A stretch of 48,368 nt of DNA from Parcubacteria group bacterium GW2011_GWA2_42_14. Its GTDB lineage: Bacteria; Patescibacteriota; Minisyncoccia; Sungbacterales; GWA2-42-14. The stretch is taken from NCBI GenBank assembly GCA_000998135.1, contig LCCV01000007.1:1-48368 (forward strand), in the 5' to 3' direction. Shown here piece after piece: positions 191 through 38,075 of this stretch. The position numbers and the translations under genes are program-made. The notes below the pieces were generated by a model, which saw only the letters and a list, made by a program, of their open reading frames with translations, made no database searches and was not told the origin of the DNA. Every line of letters starts with the position of its first letter. The stretch's first letter is position 1.

Positions 191-301
191 ATCCTAAACT
201 TAAAATCCCGAACTTAAATAGCTCGTTAAGCAAGTTAAGTGAATTAAGTAAATTAAGCTTAATCGGCTTAACCCGCTTAATTCACTTAAAAAGCCGCAAT
301 T
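191..301. repeat. Family A inverted word array (9-nt period), copy A1
   Basis: Left arm ttaagcaag ttaagtgaa ttaagtaaa ttaagctta; right arm cggcttaac ccgcttaat tcacttaaa; ends in gccgcaattg. Confidence 0.85.
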
Positions 302-4358: not shown

Positions 4359-5327
4359 GATTGTTCCATTAATATCTCCATATCCATTCAAAAACTCTTT
4401 AGCCGTCATTTCTTTTTTTCCTTCCGGCTGTAATCTTAATATTCCCAAATACCCCTGGCCGGTTTTTACGAAAAGGCGCCTTTCTTTAATTAAAACTTTC
4501 CCGGAAACATGGTCATCGCTCAAATCGGCGGTTTTTTCAACACTCGCCTCAAGCAATTCTAATCTTACCTCTTTTTTACCTTTTTTCCAAAAAGTAAAAC
4601 TTCCCGGCCATGGGGCGAGTGCCCTTATTTGTCTTTCAATTCCATCAGCAGATTTTGACCAGTCAATTCTGCCGTCTTCTTTTTTTAAAATTTTGCTATA
4701 GGTGGCCTTAGTTTCATCCTGCGGTATTGGTTTAATTTCGCCATTTATCCATTTTGGAATAGTTTCTACAATCAACCCAGCCCCCATTTTTGATAAAATT
4801 TGCGATAACTCTGACGTAGTCAATTTTGCATTTTGTATTTTGATTTTTGAATTTTCGAGAATTGGCCCATGGTCCATCTTCTCATCCATTAATATTACGC
4901 CAACTCCTGTTTCGGTATCACCGTTCAAAATCGTATATTGAATAGGAGAAGCGCCGCGCCAACGCGGGAGAAGCGACGGATGTATGTTTAGCGCGCCGTA
5001 TTTTGGAATATCCAGAATTTCTCCGGGAAGTATTTTGCCGTAGGCGGCAACCACAAATAAATCCGGATTTAAACTTGTAATTTGAAACACGAAATCTGAA
5101 TCAAGTTTATTTGGCTGTAGTATTTGGACATGTGCATCCCTGTTTAGTGTTTCATGTTTCATGATCCATGATTTAACCGGCGGAGGGGTAAAGATTGCTT
5201 CTCTTCCGATCGGTTCGTCGGGATTTGTAATGACAGCAACAACGCTAAATTTCCCAATTAGCGCTTCAAGCGGGTAAAGCGAAAAATCCGGATTGCCAAA
5301 AAAGATGATCCTGGGTAGAGTTTTCAC
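4344..5327 (-). CDS. fmt: Methionyl-tRNA formyltransferase
   Basis: NPDLFVVAAYGKILPGEILDIPKYGALNIHPSLLPRWRGASPIQ motif and C-terminal domain. Confidence 0.96.
   Translation of the reverse strand: MKTLPRIIFFGNPDFSLYPLEALIGKFSVVAVITNPDEPIGREAIFTPPPVKSWIMKHETLNRDAHVQILQPNKLDSDFVFQITSLNPDLFVVAAYGKILPGEILDIPKYGALNIHPSLLPRWRGASPIQYTILNGDTETGVGVILMDEKMDHGPILENSKIKIQNAKLTTSELSQILSKMGAGLIVETIPKWINGEIKPIPQDETKATYSKILKKEDGRIDWSKSADGIERQIRALAPWPGSFTFWKKGKKEVRLELLEASVEKTADLSDDHVSGKVLIKERRLFVKTGQGYLGILRLQPEGKKEMTAKEFLNGYGDINGTILTNN
4824..4858. repeat. In-frame heptamer array inside fmt
   Basis: ttttgca ttttgta ttttgat ttttgaa ttttcga. Confidence 0.8.
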
Positions 5328-10723: not shown

Positions 10724-10993
10724 ATGGAAAGAACTGTTTTAAAAATTACCGGCCGAGTGCAAGGCGTCTTTTTCAGGCAAACCGCCAAAGAAACTGCGCA
10801 AAAACTGGGGATTGCCGGTTTTGCAAAAAATGAAAATGATGGTAATGTTACTATTGTTGCTGAAGGGAAGAAAGACAAACTTGTTCAATTTATCGGCCTT
10901 ATAAAACGCGGGTTTGATTATACCGAAGTAAAAGCGGTGTCAATGGAGTGGGGGAGCGCAACAGAAGAATTTAAAGATTTCAACATATTTTGA
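10724..10993 (+). CDS. acyP: Acylphosphatase
   Basis: [41 protein letters not shown]. Confidence 0.95.
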
Positions 10994-10998
10994 TAGAA

Positions 10999-11070
10999 AA
11001 CGGATTAAACTTTTTAAACGGGTTAAGCTTATTTGCCTAATTTACTTAACTTGCTTAACTTGCTTTAAAT
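10999..11070. repeat. Family A array, partial copy A2
   Basis: acgggttaagcttatttgcctaatttacttaacttgcttaacttgc. Confidence 0.7.
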
Positions 11071-11072
11071 TT

Positions 11073-11558
11073 ATGAAAGTTATTTTAATCCGGGACGTAG
11101 AAAAACTCGGAAAAAATGGGGAAATAAAAAACGTCGCGGATGGATACGCGCGGAATTTTTTATTTCCCAAAAAAATGGCTATGCTTGCCGGCGAAAAAGC
11201 TATAGCTGAAATAAAAAAACAAAAAGAACGTGAAGGTAAACACAGGGAAGAAGATATCCGGAAATATAAAGAACTGGCCGAATCATTGCAAAAAATAGAA
11301 ATCATCATGTCTTTAGAAGTAGGAAAAGAAGGCCATGCTTTCGGTTCTGTCAGTAAAGACGATATTTTTGCCGAACTGAAAAAAAGGAAATTGCCAATTG
11401 AAAAAGAATGGATAGAACTGGAAAAACCGCTTAAATCAGGTGGGGGCTGGGATATCAAAATCAAACTGCCGCATGGAATAGAAGCAACAATAAAAGTGAT
11501 TGTGGAAGCGAAAAAAGAAGAGAAGAAGAGGGGAAGGCCCAAAGTTATTAAATCCTAA
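11073..11558 (+). CDS. rplI: 50S ribosomal protein L9
   Basis: [36 protein letters not shown]. Confidence 0.97.
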
Positions 11559-11709
11559 ATTCGAAATTCTAAATCCTAAACTTAAATAGCTTGTTAAGCA
11601 AGTTAAGTGAATTAAGTAAATTAAACTTAACCGGCTTAATTTGCTTAATTCACTTAAAAAACTGCAATTGGGATTTATTTAGAATTTAGATTTTAGGATT
11701 TAGAATTTA
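11550..11709. repeat. Family A copy A3: nested array with outer 7-nt arms and inner 9-nt arms, rplI stop to pyrG leader
   Basis: aaatcct aaattcg aaattct aaatcct / ttaagcaag ttaagtgaa ttaagtaaa ... ccggcttaatttgcttaattcacttaa / ttagaat ttagatt ttaggat ttagaat. Confidence 0.9.
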
Positions 11710-14029: not shown

Positions 14030-14434
14030 ATGTTATACCACCTCTATAAAAAAATCAAGTCATGGCTGGAATCTAATCAAAAAGACCTATTTTTGGCCGC
14101 AACCATTATATTGGTCAGCATAATTAGCTTTGGATTTGGTAGATTGTCCGCGATTTGGCCGGAAAAACAACCGATACGAATTGAAAAAAGCCAATTAAGC
14201 GAGTTAAGTGAATTAAGCAACGACGGAAACGACAAGCTTAACCCGCTTAACCAGCTTAATTCACTTAACCAGCCAAATGGCAAATATGTTGCCTCCAAAA
14301 ACAGCACTTTTTACCATTATCCCTGGTGTCCGGGGGCGCAAAAAATAAAAGAAGAAAATAAAATCTGGTTCCAGACAAAAGAAGAAGCGGAAAGCAGGGG
14401 ATACAAGCCGGCAGGAAATTGCGACGGATTATAA
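14030..14434 (+). CDS. Membrane-anchored protein with Ada-like metal-binding C-terminal region
   Basis: TM helix; YVASKNSTFYHYPWCPGAQKIKEENKIWFQTKEEAESRGYKPAGNC. Confidence 0.7.
   Translation: MLYHLYKKIKSWLESNQKDLFLAATIILVSIISFGFGRLSAIWPEKQPIRIEKSQLSELSELSNDGNDKLNPLNQLNSLNQPNGKYVASKNSTFYHYPWCPGAQKIKEENKIWFQTKEEAESRGYKPAGNCDGL
14195..14270. repeat. Family A array A4, in frame inside a CDS
   Basis: ttaagcgag ttaagtgaa ttaagcaac ... agcttaacc cgcttaacc agcttaatt cacttaacc; encodes LSELSELSN...KLNPLNQLNSLNQ. Confidence 0.9.
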
Positions 14435-16856: not shown

Positions 16857-16860
16857 GGCG

Positions 16861-16940
16861 GAGTAAATTAAGTGAATTAAGCTGTTTAAGCAAGTTAAGC
16901 TTAATTTACTTAATTAACTTAACTTGCTTAACAGGCTTAC
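16861..16940. repeat. Family A array A5
   Basis: aaattaagtgaattaagctgtttaagcaagttaagcttaatttacttaattaacttaacttgcttaacaggctta. Confidence 0.85.
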
Positions 16941-16978
16941 TGAAATTTTGAATTTAATATTTTTTTATATTTTTAAAA

Positions 16979-18495: not shown

Positions 18496-20022
18496 TCATC
18501 CTGTAATTTTTCTAGTTGCGGTTTTTAATTTTTTTAAAGATTCTTCCTTTCCCAAAATTTCCATAATTTCAAACGGACTCGGAGACGCTTTTTTGCCGGT
18601 TAAAGCGACCCGCAAGGGCCACAAAATTTCACCTTTATCCCCTTCCCCTATTTCCTCTAAAAATATCTTTTCTATTTCAATTTTTGACTTTAAACTTTTA
18701 ACTTTTAACTTGATTATTTCTTCCGCGCGTTTTAATGCCGCTAATACCTTCTCATCATTCATATCTTTCCATCTGAGCAGGCCTTTGTTATAAGCAGGGG
18801 CGCGGAAAAAATAATCAGTCCTCTCCCCTATCTCGGACAGCTTCTTTAATCTCGGCTGTTCCAATGCCAAAACTTTTTTAAGATAATCGTTTGTGATTTG
18901 TGATTTGTGATTTGTGATTTGAAGCAAGCCGCTTTCTTTTAAAAATGGCATGGTCAATTCCGCAAGTTCTGAAAGCGGCTTACGACGAATATATTCTCCA
19001 TTCATCCAATCAAGTTTCTGGATATCAAAAATAGCTCCTGCTTTTTGGACATTTTCAATTGAAAATTCTTGAATAAGTTCTTCTTTGGTAAATATTTCTT
19101 TATCCGTACCGGGATTCCAGCCAACAAGCGCCATAAAATTAAAAAGTGCTTCCGGCAGGTATCCCTGTTCCCGATATTCATCAACCGATGTCGCGCCGTG
19201 TCGTTTGGAAAGTTTTGAACAGTCGGGACCAAGAATAAGCGGCAGATGCGCATATCTCCAAGGCGGTACAATATCGCCGAACTCATTAGTTGTAGTCCAA
19301 CCCAGGGCTTCTGCTATAAGCAACTGTTTGGGCGTATTTGGAATATGATCTTCTCCCCTGATGACATGAGTTATCGCCATCTCGTGGTCATCCACAACGA
19401 CCGCGAAATTATAGAGCGGTGTTTCAAGATTTTTTGCTATTGAAAAATCACCAAGCAGTCCTGTAAAAAAATGAACTTGATTTCGAATTAAATCCTGAAA
19501 GGTAATTTGATGATTTGACGGTTCCGTTGGAATTTTAAATCTAATAATGGCGGATTGACCAGCCGCCTTTTTTGTTTCTGCTTCGCTTTGTGGCATATCG
19601 CGAAATGAGCATAAGTGAAAAAGCGGCAATTTCATGCTCATTTGCTCTTTCGCTTCGAACTTGAGCTCTTGCTCAGAATGAAAACAATAAAATGCCCTAC
19701 CTTCATCCAAGAGTTTTTTAATATATTTTTTATACGACGCGGTTCGTTCACTTTGTCTGTATGGCGCATGGGGACCGCCCGCCTCGGGACCTTCATCAGC
19801 ATTAATGCCGAGCCACTGCAATCCCTCCAAAATATTTTTTTCAAATACCTTATCAGAGCGTTCAATATCAGTATCTTCAATGCGTAATATGAATTTCCCG
19901 CCGTATTTTTTTGCGAATAAATAATTAAATAGGGCGGCTCTTGCTGTGCCTATGTGTAAATTACCGGTAGGACTTGGCGCAATACGGCAACGAACACCGC
20001 CTGGTTTGATAAATAACGGCAT
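18496..20022 (-). CDS. gltX: Glutamyl-tRNA synthetase
   Basis: RIAPSPTGNLHIGTARAALFNYLFAKK, KLSKRHGA. Confidence 0.96.
   Translation of the reverse strand: MPLFIKPGGVRCRIAPSPTGNLHIGTARAALFNYLFAKKYGGKFILRIEDTDIERSDKVFEKNILEGLQWLGINADEGPEAGGPHAPYRQSERTASYKKYIKKLLDEGRAFYCFHSEQELKFEAKEQMSMKLPLFHLCSFRDMPQSEAETKKAAGQSAIIRFKIPTEPSNHQITFQDLIRNQVHFFTGLLGDFSIAKNLETPLYNFAVVVDDHEMAITHVIRGEDHIPNTPKQLLIAEALGWTTTNEFGDIVPPWRYAHLPLILGPDCSKLSKRHGATSVDEYREQGYLPEALFNFMALVGWNPGTDKEIFTKEELIQEFSIENVQKAGAIFDIQKLDWMNGEYIRRKPLSELAELTMPFLKESGLLQITNHKSQITNDYLKKVLALEQPRLKKLSEIGERTDYFFRAPAYNKGLLRWKDMNDEKVLAALKRAEEIIKLKVKSLKSKIEIEKIFLEEIGEGDKGEILWPLRVALTGKKASPSPFEIMEILGKEESLKKLKTATRKITG
18682..18709. repeat. In-frame heptamer array in gltX
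   Basis: ttttgac tttaaac ttttaac ttttaac; encodes IKLKVKSLKSKIE. Confidence 0.75.
18892..18919. repeat. In-frame perfect heptamer array (TGTGATT x4) in gltX
   Basis: tgtgatt tgtgatt tgtgatt tgtgatt; encodes QITNHKSQITND. Confidence 0.92.
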
Positions 20023-20182: not shown

Positions 20183-21303
20183 TTATAATGTAGTCCCAGT
20201 TTAATTATCTCCCTGGCAATGATTTCTGAAGCGTCAATCCTGGAAAATTTTTGAGCGGATTCCATCATTTTTTTTTGAATATCAGGATGCTCAAATATTT
20301 TTTCAATATCATTCAGTAAAAGATGCGGGGATAAATTATCTTCTTCAATTACCGTACAGCTTCCGGTTTTAGCGTATTCATAAGAATTTTCCCTTTGATG
20401 ATTTTGCGCGGAATTTGAAAGCGGTATGAGTATTGACGGCTTTTGCATCGCGGCAATTTCAAAAATAGAAGAAGACCCCGCCCTTGAAACAATAAGATTG
20501 GAAACGGCGTAAATCTCACGAATCCTGTCTTCGGACAAAAAATCAAAAAGATGATATTTTTCTTTTCCCATTCTTTCTAAAAGCACCGAGGTTTCTTCCG
20601 CTACGGCTTTATAATTTTTCTTGCCAGCCTGATGAATAACCTCATATTTTTTAATAAGCTGGGGAAGTATGCCGATGACCGCGTTATTTAGATTCTCGGA
20701 ACCCTGGGAACCGCCGTTGAAAAATATGATTGGGTCGCCGGAAAATACTGATATATTCATTTTTGCCTCCGCCGCGTTCGCTCCGAGCAATTTTTTTCTT
20801 ATGGGGTTTCCGGACACAACTGTTTTTTCCGGAGAGAAAAATTTCACCGATACCCCAAAAGCAACGGCAATGCGTTTGGCAAATTTTGCCGACCATTTAT
20901 TGACAATGCCCGGCACCGCGTCCGATTCATGAATAATGACCGGTATCCGGTAAAGCCTCGCGGTAAACAAAACCGGAAACGCGCCGAAGCCGCCCTTGGA
21001 AAAAATTACATCAGGCAAAATTACAAATAACTTCCAGAATGCCCGCAGGATTCCGAAAAACGTCTTAAAGAGGTCGGTTATATTATAGAAAGAAACATAT
21101 CTCCTGATTTTTCCGGTTGCCAGAGGATAATAAATTATCCCTTCCTTTTTCAGGTCTTCTTCTCCAATAAAAATCGGCCCTATATAAAATAGCTTTAGGT
21201 CAACGATTTTTTCTTCTTCGGCTATTTTTTTTAATTCTCTGGCAACGGCAATAATCGGATAAAAGTGTCCTCCGGAACCGCCGCCGGTAAATAGAATTCT
21301 CAT
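20170..21303 (-). CDS. murG: UDP-N-acetylglucosamine--N-acetylmuramyl-(pentapeptide) pyrophosphoryl-undecaprenol GlcNAc transferase
   Basis: MRILFTGGGSGGHFYPIIAVARELK; NGGSQGSENLN; SRAGSSSIFEIA. Confidence 0.96.
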   Translation of the reverse strand: MRILFTGGGSGGHFYPIIAVARELKKIAEEEKIVDLKLFYIGPIFIGEEDLKKEGIIYYPLATGKIRRYVSFYNITDLFKTFFGILRAFWKLFVILPDVIFSKGGFGAFPVLFTARLYRIPVIIHESDAVPGIVNKWSAKFAKRIAVAFGVSVKFFSPEKTVVSGNPIRKKLLGANAAEAKMNISVFSGDPIIFFNGGSQGSENLNNAVIGILPQLIKKYEVIHQAGKKNYKAVAEETSVLLERMGKEKYHLFDFLSEDRIREIYAVSNLIVSRAGSSSIFEIAAMQKPSILIPLSNSAQNHQRENSYEYAKTGSCTVIEEDNLSPHLLLNDIEKIFEHPDIQKKMMESAQKFSRIDASEIIAREIIKLGLHYKHET

Positions 21304-21374
21304 GAATCATGAATCATGAATCATGAATCATTGTAACCTTATATAATGTTACATGTTTCAAGTTTCATGTTTTA
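21301..21374. repeat. Family B heptamer array filling the whole ftsW/murG spacer
   Basis: catgaat x4 ... tgttaca tgtttca agtttca tgtttta. Confidence 0.92.
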
Positions 21375-27115: not shown

Positions 27116-27252
27116 TTTAAATCGAAATCCCAAACTTAAATAGCTTGTTAAGCAAGTTAAGTGAATTAAGTAAATTAAGCTTAACTGGCTTAACTCGCTT
27201 AATTCACTTAAAAAGCTGCAATTGAAATTTATTTAAAAATTAAAATTGAAAA
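27116..27252. repeat. Family A array A6 (dacA/mraY spacer)
   Basis: aatagcttgttaagcaagttaagtgaattaagtaaattaagcttaactggcttaactcgcttaattcacttaaaaagctgcaattg. Confidence 0.9.
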
Positions 27253-29928: not shown

Positions 29929-31303
29929 TTATATGCGCTTCTTTCAACTGCTTGGGACTAACTTCCGACGGCGCGTCCATCATTAAATCTCTCGCGTCCC
30001 CAGTTTTTGGAAAAGCCATAACTTCACGAATTGACGGCTCATTTTGTAAAATCGCGACAAAACGGTCTATTCCCAAAGCAATTCCGCCGTGCGGAGGCGC
30101 TCCGTATTCAAATGCTTCCAGCATGTGCCCGAAACGGCCCTTAATTTCTTCTTCGGCAAGCCCGAGCACGCGGAATATTTTCTCCTGCAAATCCCTCCGA
30201 TGGATTCTTATGGAACCGCCGCCTATTTCATAACCGTTCAGCACCAAATCATACGCCTTGGCCATGACTTGTTCCGGATTTTTTTCAAGCAAACGCAAAT
30301 CACCGTCCTTGGGAGAAGTAAAAGGGTGATGCGAGGAAACCAGGCCTTTTTCTGTTTCGGAGTATTCAAACAACGGAAAATCAACTACCCATAAAAAAGC
30401 CAATTCTTGAAAATCGTTTTTATTTTCGCGGATATCCGGCTTGTCGGAATTATATTTTTCCACGGCCTCCTTTTGAGACATCACCGGAAAAGGCGTTTTT
30501 AATATTTTTTTTGCCGGAAACAATTCGCCGATACTTTTAATGACAATTTCTTCAATGATGCTCCGTATTGATTCTTCATCCAAAAAACTGATTTCAACGT
30601 CAAGCTGAGTGAATTCCGGCTGGCGGTCTTTTCTTTCGTCTTCATCGCGAAAGCATCTGGCAAACTGAAAATAGCGTTCAAAACCCGAAACCATCAATAA
30701 CTGTTTGAATTGCTGGGGGGACTGCGGAAGAACAAAAAATTTTCCCGGATGGAGCCGCGAAGGAACAATGAATTCCCGGGCGCCTTCCGGCGTTCCCTTG
30801 GTAAGGCTGGGAGTTTCAATTTCCACGAATCCGCGTTCCGAAAAAGCGTTTCTCATAAACAAGGCCATCTTATGCCTCATGCCTATATTTTTTTGCAGAC
30901 GGGCCCTTCGTAAATCCAGATAGCGGTATCTTAACCGGTTATCTTCGCCTATTTCATAGCCGTCAGAATTAAGCGCGAATGGAGGAGTTTTGGCTTCGTT
31001 TAAAATAACCAATTTTTCAACCAGCATTTCAATATTGCCGGTAGTAAGTTCCGGGTTTTCCACGCCCTTGGGTCTTTCGCCGATTTTTCCTTCAACCTCA
31101 ATAACCCATTCTCCCCTGAGAGTATTGGCAAGGCCGTAAAGTTCTTTATCTTTAGGAGTAAACACTAATTGCAAAATTCCGCTCCGGTCGCGAAGGTCAA
31201 TGAAAATAATTTTGCCGTGGTCACGCCGTGTGTCCACCCAACCGGAAACTTTAACAATCTTACCCGCCTTACTTATTGTATCAATGGTTAATATTCTTTC
31301 CAT
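29909..31303 (-). CDS. aspS: Aspartyl-tRNA synthetase, short form
   Basis: [54 protein letters not shown]-type motif, [34 protein letters not shown]. Confidence 0.95.
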   Translation of the reverse strand: [464 protein letters not shown]

Positions 31304-31368
31304 GAATCATGAATCATGAATCATGAATCATTTTAACAATGTTTCAGGTTTCATGTTTCAAGTTTTAT
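31301..31368. repeat. Family B array upstream of aspS
   Basis: catgaatcatgaatcatgaatcatgaatcattttaacaatgtttcaggtttcatgtttcaagtttta. Confidence 0.9.
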
Positions 31369-34914: not shown

Positions 34915-34924
34915 ATTTATTCGA

Positions 34925-35095
34925 TAAATCCTAAATTCGAAATCCTAAATTCTAAACGTAAATAGCCTGTTAAGTAAGTTAAGTGAATTAAGTAAATTAA
35001 GCTTAACTCGCTTAAAAAGCTAAAATTGTAATTTGTTTAGGATTTTCCGCCAGAGGTGAATCCGCCTTCGGAGGAAAATATTAGGATTTAGGGTT
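34925..35095. repeat. Family A array A7 with outer heptamer arms and an inner ccgcc...ggcgg-type hairpin
   Basis: taaatcc taaattc gaaatcc taaattc...ttaagtgaattaagtaaattaagcttaactcgcttaa...ggattttccgccagaggtgaatccgccttcggaggaaaatattaggattta. Confidence 0.88.
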
Positions 35096-35551
35096 TTATT
35101 TAGCAAAATATTGCTTTATCAAATCACTGATTTTTCCCGGGGTCGTTTCGGCCTTAATGAAAATATCAACAGCCCCCAAATCTTTAATATTTTCTCTTTC
35201 GTCCGGATAAAGCATGTTGGTTAACACAAAAACAACTATTTTTTTTGTATCAGGGTCGCCTTTCAGCAGTTTTAAAACATCAATGCCATACATTCCCGGC
35301 AAGCGCAAATCAAGCAAAATCACATCGGGCTTTTCGGCTTTCGCGGTTTCAAAACCTTTCCGGCCGTCGTCCACGTGCAAAACTTGACACCCGACCCCTT
35401 CCAGATGGTTTTTATACATCTTTGCCAAATCCTGATCGTCTTCAATAATCAACACTTTTTGGGTTATACGAATGGGAATATCTACCATAACATTATTATA
35501 AATTAAAAAACGATGAATATCAATAAATATCGCGAAGCAAATATCCATCAA
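35096..35551 (-). CDS. Response regulator receiver protein (likely start at the internal ATG near 35488)
   Basis: KVLIIEDDQDLAKMYKNHLE, PDVILLDLRLPGMYGIDVLKLLK, VFVLTN. Confidence 0.92.
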   Translation of the reverse strand: MMDICFAIFIDIHRFLIYNNVMVDIPIRITQKVLIIEDDQDLAKMYKNHLEGVGCQVLHVDDGRKGFETAKAEKPDVILLDLRLPGMYGIDVLKLLKGDPDTKKIVVFVLTNMLYPDERENIKDLGAVDIFIKAETTPGKISDLIKQYFAK

Positions 35552-35591
35552 TATCAGATATTAATTGATACTTATTGATACTTGTTGATAT
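35509..35591. repeat. Array with about 10-nt period
   Basis: gatgaatatcaataaatatc...gcaaatatccatcaatatc...ttgatactta ttgatacttg ttgatattta ttg. Confidence 0.7.
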
Positions 35592-36623
35592 TTATTGTTT
35601 GGAATTTTGAAATAATAACCTGGCTTTGTCCCAAAATCCCCACTGATTATGCTTCTGCCCCATCCAATACCACCACTCTGCCCCCCAAAAATATATCGTA
35701 TCAAATCCTGTTTTTTTGACAAATTCAACGCGCTCCTCAAATTCCGATTCGGGAAAAACCGCCAATTGCTCTTCCAAAGCCGTTTCATAAATTTGCTTCG
35801 GATTCCAGGGTTCCATTTGAAATTCCACAACTATTTTCGGTTTTTTACCGGCAATAAAATCAGTTAATCTTGACTTGGCCCTGAAAAATCCTGGGCCGAT
35901 GGGATAACGGAACTGGCCAATCCAATTATTATAAATCTGAAAATACATTGTTGTCCCGAAAATATCGGCCCTTGACGCGGCCGGTATCCATCTGCCCAAT
36001 TCTCCTGAATCGGTAATTAAAACCGGGCGCGACGGATCAAGCGAACGAACCAGCTCAATTTCCCTTTCCAAAAATTCTTTATCAAATTCGGGGCATTCCC
36101 CAAACGGCAAAAACGGTTCATTCTCTACCTGCCAGTATTTGACGCTTTCATAATTTTTAAAACGGTTTATTGTTTCTTCTATATATTTTAATAATTTTTG
36201 TTGTTTATATTCTTTGTTCTGTGGTTGGTGGTTAGCGGCTGATTGTTGGTTGTTGAGCCAACCGGGTTCATGGCATTCGGGCCAGCGCGGAAGTTTTCTG
36301 CCGACCGCCAGAATTATTTCCGCATTCCTTTTTTCCGCCTCCCGAACCTGCCACCATAAATCATCAAAATCGAAACTTTCCTCCCGCGTTTCAATTTCGT
36401 CCCAATAAGCGGGTAATCTTAATTTTCTTGCCCCCAAATCATCAAGAAGAGCGGCATAAAGCGCCTTCCAATCCAGTCCCAATTTTTCAGCAAATGGCTT
36501 AGAGAAAGTAACGCCGTACCGCATTTGTTGCGGCGCGGGAAACGGGCGGGAAAGGTACCATAAAAAAGCACCGAACAACAACAAAATAAATACAACCAGC
36601 CACAGTTTAACCTTATTAATCAT
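35592..36623 (-). CDS. Membrane-anchored glycoside hydrolase-like (TIM-barrel) protein
   Basis: YWQVENEPFLPFGECPEFDKEFLEREIELVRSLDPSRPVLITDSGELG, VVEFQMEPW, FDTIYFWGAEWWYWM. Confidence 0.7.
   Translation of the reverse strand: MINKVKLWLVVFILLLFGAFLWYLSRPFPAPQQMRYGVTFSKPFAEKLGLDWKALYAALLDDLGARKLRLPAYWDEIETREESFDFDDLWWQVREAEKRNAEIILAVGRKLPRWPECHEPGWLNNQQSAANHQPQNKEYKQQKLLKYIEETINRFKNYESVKYWQVENEPFLPFGECPEFDKEFLEREIELVRSLDPSRPVLITDSGELGRWIPAASRADIFGTTMYFQIYNNWIGQFRYPIGPGFFRAKSRLTDFIAGKKPKIVVEFQMEPWNPKQIYETALEEQLAVFPESEFEERVEFVKKTGFDTIYFWGAEWWYWMGQKHNQWGFWDKARLLFQNSKQ
36218..36259. repeat. In-frame family E heptamer array
   Basis: tctgtgg ttggtgg ttagcgg ctgattg ttggttg ttgagcc; encodes NNQQSAANHQPQNK. 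Confidence 0.8.
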
Positions 36624-37684: not shown

Positions 37685-38075
37685 ATATCATATCGTTAAA
37701 AATCTTAAACTATAAAAATTAAAATCTAAACAATCCGGCATATTAAGCAAGTTAAGTAAATTAAGTAAATTAAGCTTAACTTGCTTAACCCGCTTAATTC
37801 ACTTAATAAGCTATAAAATTTGTTTAGGATTTTCCACCCAGACCGTCCGAAAACCGTCATTCTGAACTTTGTGAAGAATCTCTGCCATTCAAGATTGGTT
37901 TAAACACGAGATTCTTCGCGGATGGATTCGATAAACTCACCACAGGGTTTATCCTGAGATTCTTCCCCTTCGCATGGCTCAGGGTCAGAATGACGACCGA
38001 AGGACTCAAAATGACAAAAGCGCTTTTTTAGCAGTTTTCGGACGGTCTGTCGGCGGAAGATATTAAGATTTAAAA
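37685..38075. repeat. Family A array A8 containing a family C element in its right part
   Basis: ttaagcaagttaagtaaattaagtaaattaagcttaacttgcttaacccgcttaattcacttaa...ggattttccacccagaccgtccgaaaac...ttttcggacggtctgtcggcggaagatattaagattta. Confidence 0.88.

Follow-up and report, generated by a model that had tools for sequence, protein, structure and literature searches.

The window, by which we mean the whole stretch of 48,368 nucleotides that was analysed, contains an open reading frame whose product has an N-terminal transmembrane (TM) helix, followed by a linker and a C-terminal Ada-like domain (Table 1). PF02805 (Ada_Zn_binding) matches the protein with E=3e-4 and 21.1 bits, below its curated cut-off of 23. 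The top three Foldseek hits are all N-Ada, with probabilities of 0.97-1.00 and a weak E value of 0.08; the best rmsd against N-Ada is 1.4 over 46 columns, and 1u8b is matched with a probability of 1.00. The four zinc-binding cysteines are absent as a set, C100 and C131 being the only invariant cysteines in 24 sequences. The protein has a match in 95 of 113 relatives, almost always a single one per genome, as judged from ORF-based gene calls in genomes that are mostly metagenome-assembled. In the predicted structure, pLDDT is below 50 at residues 63-80, which corresponds to predicted disorder.

The linker joins the TM helix to the Ada-like domain, and its reading frame gives QLSELSELS..KLNPLNQLNSLNQ; the peptides LSELSELSNDGNDK and LNPLNQLNSLNQ are the predicted translation of this region. 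The 9-nt words and their in-frame translation are as the original prediction had described them; a point absent from it is that the left array, made of TTAAG-words, and the right array are reverse complements, so that both belong to one quasi-palindrome. Its perfect stem of 16 bp pairs 14203-14218 with 14254-14269. The stem score of the linker is 16, compared with a mean of 5.8 and a maximum of 11 in 4,000 codon shuffles, and because none of these shuffles exceeds 11 a chance origin of the stem is excluded.

Table 1. Repeat arrays and palindromes in the window, with the host ORF of the in-frame copy
Feature	Position	Strand	Remarks
Intergenic family A copy	211..300	+	covariance model
Heptamer array in fmt	4822..4855	-	ENSKIKIQNAKL
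Degenerate intergenic family A copy	10990..11073	-	covariance model
Intergenic family A copy	11579..11668	+	nested in heptamer-armed palindrome 11549-11709
Host ORF	14030..14434	+	134 aa: TM helix, predicted disordered linker (~residues 51-82), Ada-like domain
In-frame family A quasi-palindrome	14186..14277	+	with its edges, the entire linker (KSQLSELSELSNDGNDKLNPLNQLNSLNQPN)
Left arm	14195..14218	+	TTAAGCGAG TTAAGTGAA TTAAGC, encodes LSELSELS
Loop, 17 nt	14219..14235	+	AACGACGGAAACGACAA; ~10 nt longer than the loops of other copies
Right arm	14236..14270	+	GCTTAACCC GCTTAACCA GCTTAATTC ACTTAACC, encodes LNPLNQLNSLN
Heptamer array, ACAACCA-type, in PDDEXK nuclease loop	15500..15540	-	
Intergenic family A copy	16857..16946	-	covariance model
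(AAATCAC)x4.6 in gltX	18890..18921	-	in frame, encodes QITNHKSQITN
Intergenic family A copy, nearest to consensus	27133..27222	+	covariance model
Intergenic family A copy	34955..35042	+	right arm lacks two 9-nt words
Intergenic family A copy	37728..37817	+	covariance model

The quasi-palindrome belongs to a dispersed family, here family A, which is a palindromic repeat of 9-nt words with TTAAG-words in one arm and their reverse complements in the other, and a core of ~75-90 bp. Both arms of the linker copy are clearly homologous to those of other copies in an alignment with twelve others, and a covariance model, built from 13 sequences of which the linker copy is one, matches it at 14180-14279 with E=3.5e-15. 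The linker DNA thus represents one copy of an element that is dispersed between genes, and the DNA-level origin that had been proposed for it stands; a search for orthologs with the same peptide but unrelated codons, which would have pointed to an origin at the protein level, found the peptide in 0 of the 132 other orthologs. We also considered an origin in situ, in which replication slippage would have expanded an LSE-like sequence present by chance and the array would have no relation to the intergenic arrays. A 9-nt period keeps the frame and such arrays expand easily, and the number of words does differ between copies (as in the copy at 34970), but slippage yields no reverse-complement arm, and both arms, inverted as they are, agree in order as well as in sequence with 13 dispersed copies. 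Slippage is already contradicted by this match; we reject it and regard it as extremely improbable.

Using the covariance model, we found 14 family A loci in this 1.24-Mb genome of an uncultured, very small, Sungbacteria-like member of the Patescibacteria, eight of them in the 48-kb contig of the window and six elsewhere. Eight of 14 copies within 3.9% of the genome is far from a random distribution (binomial 1.3e-8); local spread and a regional origin are both possibilities for this cluster, which extends from 211 to 37817 of the window. The words had been said to be intergenic elsewhere, and 13 of the 14 loci do lie between genes, frequently within tens of bases of one, the linker copy being the only coding one. 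The copy on contig C11 (L066:967-1053) provides the last codons and the stop of rpsQ, just upstream of rplN. When 22 further genomes of the order are compared, G005, of the same family, is the only one to show the triple-word pattern. Some family A copies are enclosed by larger palindromes with heptamer arms (TAAATTC / GAATTTA), at 11549-11709 and 34915-35100, and this nesting gives long composite hairpins. Clear arrays of period 7, 9 and 10 share another trait, each arm ending at ~30-36 bp regardless of word length; arms of ~32 bp are seen at 18890-18921, 21300-21331, 31301-31331, 35564-35597 and 27148-27211.

The original prediction also held that a 9-nt period makes this family especially suited to create protein linkers, and this part is not borne out. 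In a family A copy usually one of the three frames per strand, the LSE frame, is open throughout. The left arm of the linker copy is read in this frame, the sole open one of three on the + strand, and it is because its loop is ~10 nt longer that the right arm is read as LNPLNQ and not as LTR/LIH. The 9-nt words are open in just one or two frames, whereas a pure heptamer array is either open or closed in every frame of a given strand, and pure arrays of AAATCCG, AAATCAC and AACCAAC contain no stops in any of the three frames of the strand shown. The coding counts point the same way, with one of 14 family A loci against 22 of the 44 heptamer sites sampled in the related genome G015, and the idea that 9 nt is the key property is rejected on these counts.

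Nor is there support for the suggestion that the array created the linker, since a linker is present in every ortholog. In 133 distinct orthologs its length ranges from 22 to 66 aa and its sequence is variable throughout; linkers with a repeat do not exceed the others in length (median 41 versus 40 aa, p = 0.63). The linker of the window has 41 aa against a median of 40 aa in the 132 other orthologs, and a lengthening by the element is rejected. The nearest orthologs are 60-64% identical and have linkers of similar length and unrelated sequence, so replacement of the former linker instead of insertion is possible; no empty site with a conserved flank was found among the orthologs compared.

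Inverted repeats at p<=0.01 under the codon-shuffle null are found in 11 of 133 linkers and in none of the 133 Ada domains, and inverted or direct repeats in 16 linkers versus five Ada domains, although these 16 represent fewer independent events because the sequences share descent (L035 and L036 are of one genus, L047 and L053 of one family). The density of stems scoring at least 14 is 0.38/kb for the linkers, against 0.02/kb for the remaining coding DNA and 1.1/kb for intergenic DNA (Fisher p=1e-5; background computed on the loci of all 133 orthologs). As the Ada domain used as control is a conserved domain, this enrichment shows tolerance of the linker and not targeting. In other genera the repeats at this linker are unrelated to family A and are mostly arrays of 7-nt words or REP-like hairpins. 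For five genomes the linker repeat is dispersed in the genome that carries it: the GAACTTA family in G015 (129 pattern matches), the GAATGCT family in G011, a REP, CCCCAACTTGGCGGC, in G027, and GAGGT hairpins in G091 and G071. The repeats in the linkers of L052, L106, L115 and L154 (p<=0.01) are weaker and lie outside the set with shown dispersal. The presence of unrelated repeats in the same linker of relatives hints that protein sequence is regularly drawn from such repeats in this lineage.

Two forms of selection could also be invoked for the linker copy. The hairpin might function as DNA or mRNA, for instance by pausing translation after the TM helix and before the outer domain; the TM-coding part is indeed followed directly by a stable stem, and several lineages have unrelated palindromes recurring at this linker. 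Some 88-92% of orthologs, however, have no significant repeat in the linker, and members of the same families are also found in loops of unrelated proteins, which makes this function improbable. Selection may instead act on the LSE/LN peptide itself, through binding or helix formation, with the DNA repetition as a by-product. A short helix is possible in the left half (H59-62 in the predicted structure), yet the peptide was sought in the 132 other orthologs and found in none, every linker sequence being different, most of the linker has a pLDDT below 50, and the inverted complementarity exceeds that of every codon shuffle. We give this explanation hardly any credence.

Other proteins carry comparable arrays. 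In the window, the array in gltX aligns as a 7-residue insertion against 2o5r, the best solved glutamyl-tRNA synthetase; a second heptamer-like stretch in the same gene, 18682-18728 (EEIIKLKVKSLKSK), lies near an 18-nt inverted pair at 18711-18728/18800-18817. The site in the PDDEXK nuclease loop is occupied by different heptamer arrays in six genomes (the window, G015, G022, G005, G011 and G016), with an almost constant loop length, the shorter arrays being judged by eye; the AAATCCG word of the G022 loop is dispersed in G022. The in-frame heptamer sites of G015 are in genes assigned by NCBIfam to argS, ileS, mfd, fusA, map, pcrA/uvrD-like and rsmH, and further to uvrC, lepA, mnmA (two inserts), gdh, alr, uvrB and rpsC. 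Compared with the sequences of solved structures, the copy in fusA (EF-G) is a clean insertion of 18 residues and that in map (MetAP) one of 15 residues; the EF-G of G015 is predicted to contain ELRTENLELR-type peptides.

Insertion and replacement are both in play, because loop lengths are near-constant at two sites, yet the EF-G and MetAP copies are true insertions. That lineage-specific palindromes with periodic arms overwrite the same tolerant sites of Patescibacteria, leaving lengths unchanged, instead of inserting into them, is conceivable but on balance doubtful. Somewhat less likely still is that an older linker repeat predates the split of the lineages and was rewritten in each genome by its current family, in a gene-conversion-like turnover with no fresh insertion. 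Related genera do share the site and a similar length while differing in words, at the linker as in the PDDEXK loop, and the linker arrays of two genomes of genus g16 are in similar register; against this, most orthologs have no array at all, and insertion-tolerant loops would produce the same picture.

As to how the repeats move, Y1/RAYT genes are present in eight of the 11 genomes tested. The RAYT gene of the genome under study (L288, G000 C4) contains in frame a REP-like palindrome, GTAATTTAGCGAAGT CGG ACTTCGCTAAATTAC, with related copies on both sides, and that of G027 (L235, C41) contains in frame the palindrome family of its linker (HQLGGGAAKLV), with a related copy upstream. Since both genes carry palindromes in frame, a RAYT origin is plausible for some linker palindromes. 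The ORF neighbouring the G027 RAYT gene (L235) has LGGGAAK after a TM helix. No family A copy lies beside the RAYT gene; the nearest is at C4:125836, ~16 kb from RAYT at C4:109050. A role of RAYT as the mover of family A is unsupported, as a different palindrome flanks the RAYT gene found here, and G015, despite its 44 sampled heptamer sites, gave no match in the Y1 search. No mobility enzyme linked to family A was found in this genome, and the same holds for the heptamers.

We consider it highly probable that the linker DNA is a family A copy captured in frame and kept as a passive spacer, as part of an RPE-like spread of repeats into tolerant loops. The copy, one of the dispersed quasi-palindromes with arms of 9-nt words, would have landed or been copied in the sole frame without a stop in the left arm. 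It would have survived there because the extracytoplasmic linker is predicted to be disordered and may tolerate nearly any sequence, as the variability across 133 orthologs and the predicted disorder suggest, and it would now act as a passive spacer derived from selfish DNA. The same process, with other repeat families, would have affected this linker, as well as further proteins, in related genomes; repeats would arrive all over the genome, and inside genes they would persist wherever an open frame coincides with a tolerant loop. Three observations count against this explanation, namely that no empty site with a conserved flank was found among the orthologs, that family A mostly avoids genes and that no mobility enzyme is linked to it. 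Passive capture is nevertheless the most economical account. It would add the Patescibacteria, and arms of 7- or 9-nt words, to the cases in which palindromic selfish DNA is captured in frame, of which those in Rickettsia and Wolbachia are the best known. As one linker and one nuclease loop are each occupied by unrelated families in different genera, how often repeats become protein, and whether by insertion or overwriting, can be asked from genomes alone. The G015 repeats in EF-G, LepA, S3, two aminoacyl-tRNA synthetases, the tRNA thiolase and UvrB would be natural probes of loop tolerance, and such peptides in Patescibacteria proteins should be read with caution, as repeat-derived and not as conserved function.

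In-frame palindromes have been described for Rickettsia, Wolbachia and M. jannaschii (PMC2996958, PMC2229807, PMC10969869). Like those studied here, they are dispersed, intergenic as well as in frame in conserved genes, and found in small genomes and at unstructured sites; the likeness to the Rickettsia palindromic elements (RPE) is drawn by analogy at the level of function. With its 14 loci and the long stems seen in folds, family A is a dispersed family able to form a long stem-loop, as RPEs are. Insertion in frame in conserved genes is also found, for family A in the focal gene only and for other families in gltX and at the 22 of 44 sites of G015. The family A core is shorter than the 105-146 bp of RPEs (PMC2229807), and unlike RPEs the repeats here have arms of short-period words (7 or 9 nt), include several unrelated families at one site and are hosted by Patescibacteria. 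REPs, defined as palindromes of 20-40 bp with a GTAG or CGTC tag, have also been described inside genes, including at about the same recB site in two Xanthomonas species (PMC3733652). The REP/RAYT system shares with the present repeats that it is palindromic and dispersed, and in the RAYT genes found here a REP of their own lies in frame. By contrast, the family A consensus has no short hairpin tagged with GTAG or CGTC, is longer and does not adjoin RAYT, an adjacency shown in this genome by a different palindrome. The TAACTGA heptamers of Beggiatoaceae form short, mostly intergenic arrays (PMC4679880) of direct repeats that bring stops on the forward strand, whereas the arrays here are paired inverted arms, often in frame; family A has 9-nt words and an inverted partner arm instead of 7-nt direct repeats without one. 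The PARCELs of Mollicutes are palindromic DNA encoding repeats (PMC2996958), but they are tandem domains of surface proteins, whereas family A is a dispersed intergenic element captured as a linker. In the literature searched, coverage of which was incomplete, there were no reports of heptanucleotide repeats, in-frame insertions or REP elements in Parcubacteria, CPR or Patescibacteria. In-frame palindromes being already known, what appears to be new here is the phylum, the periodic anatomy and the recurrence at the same site.
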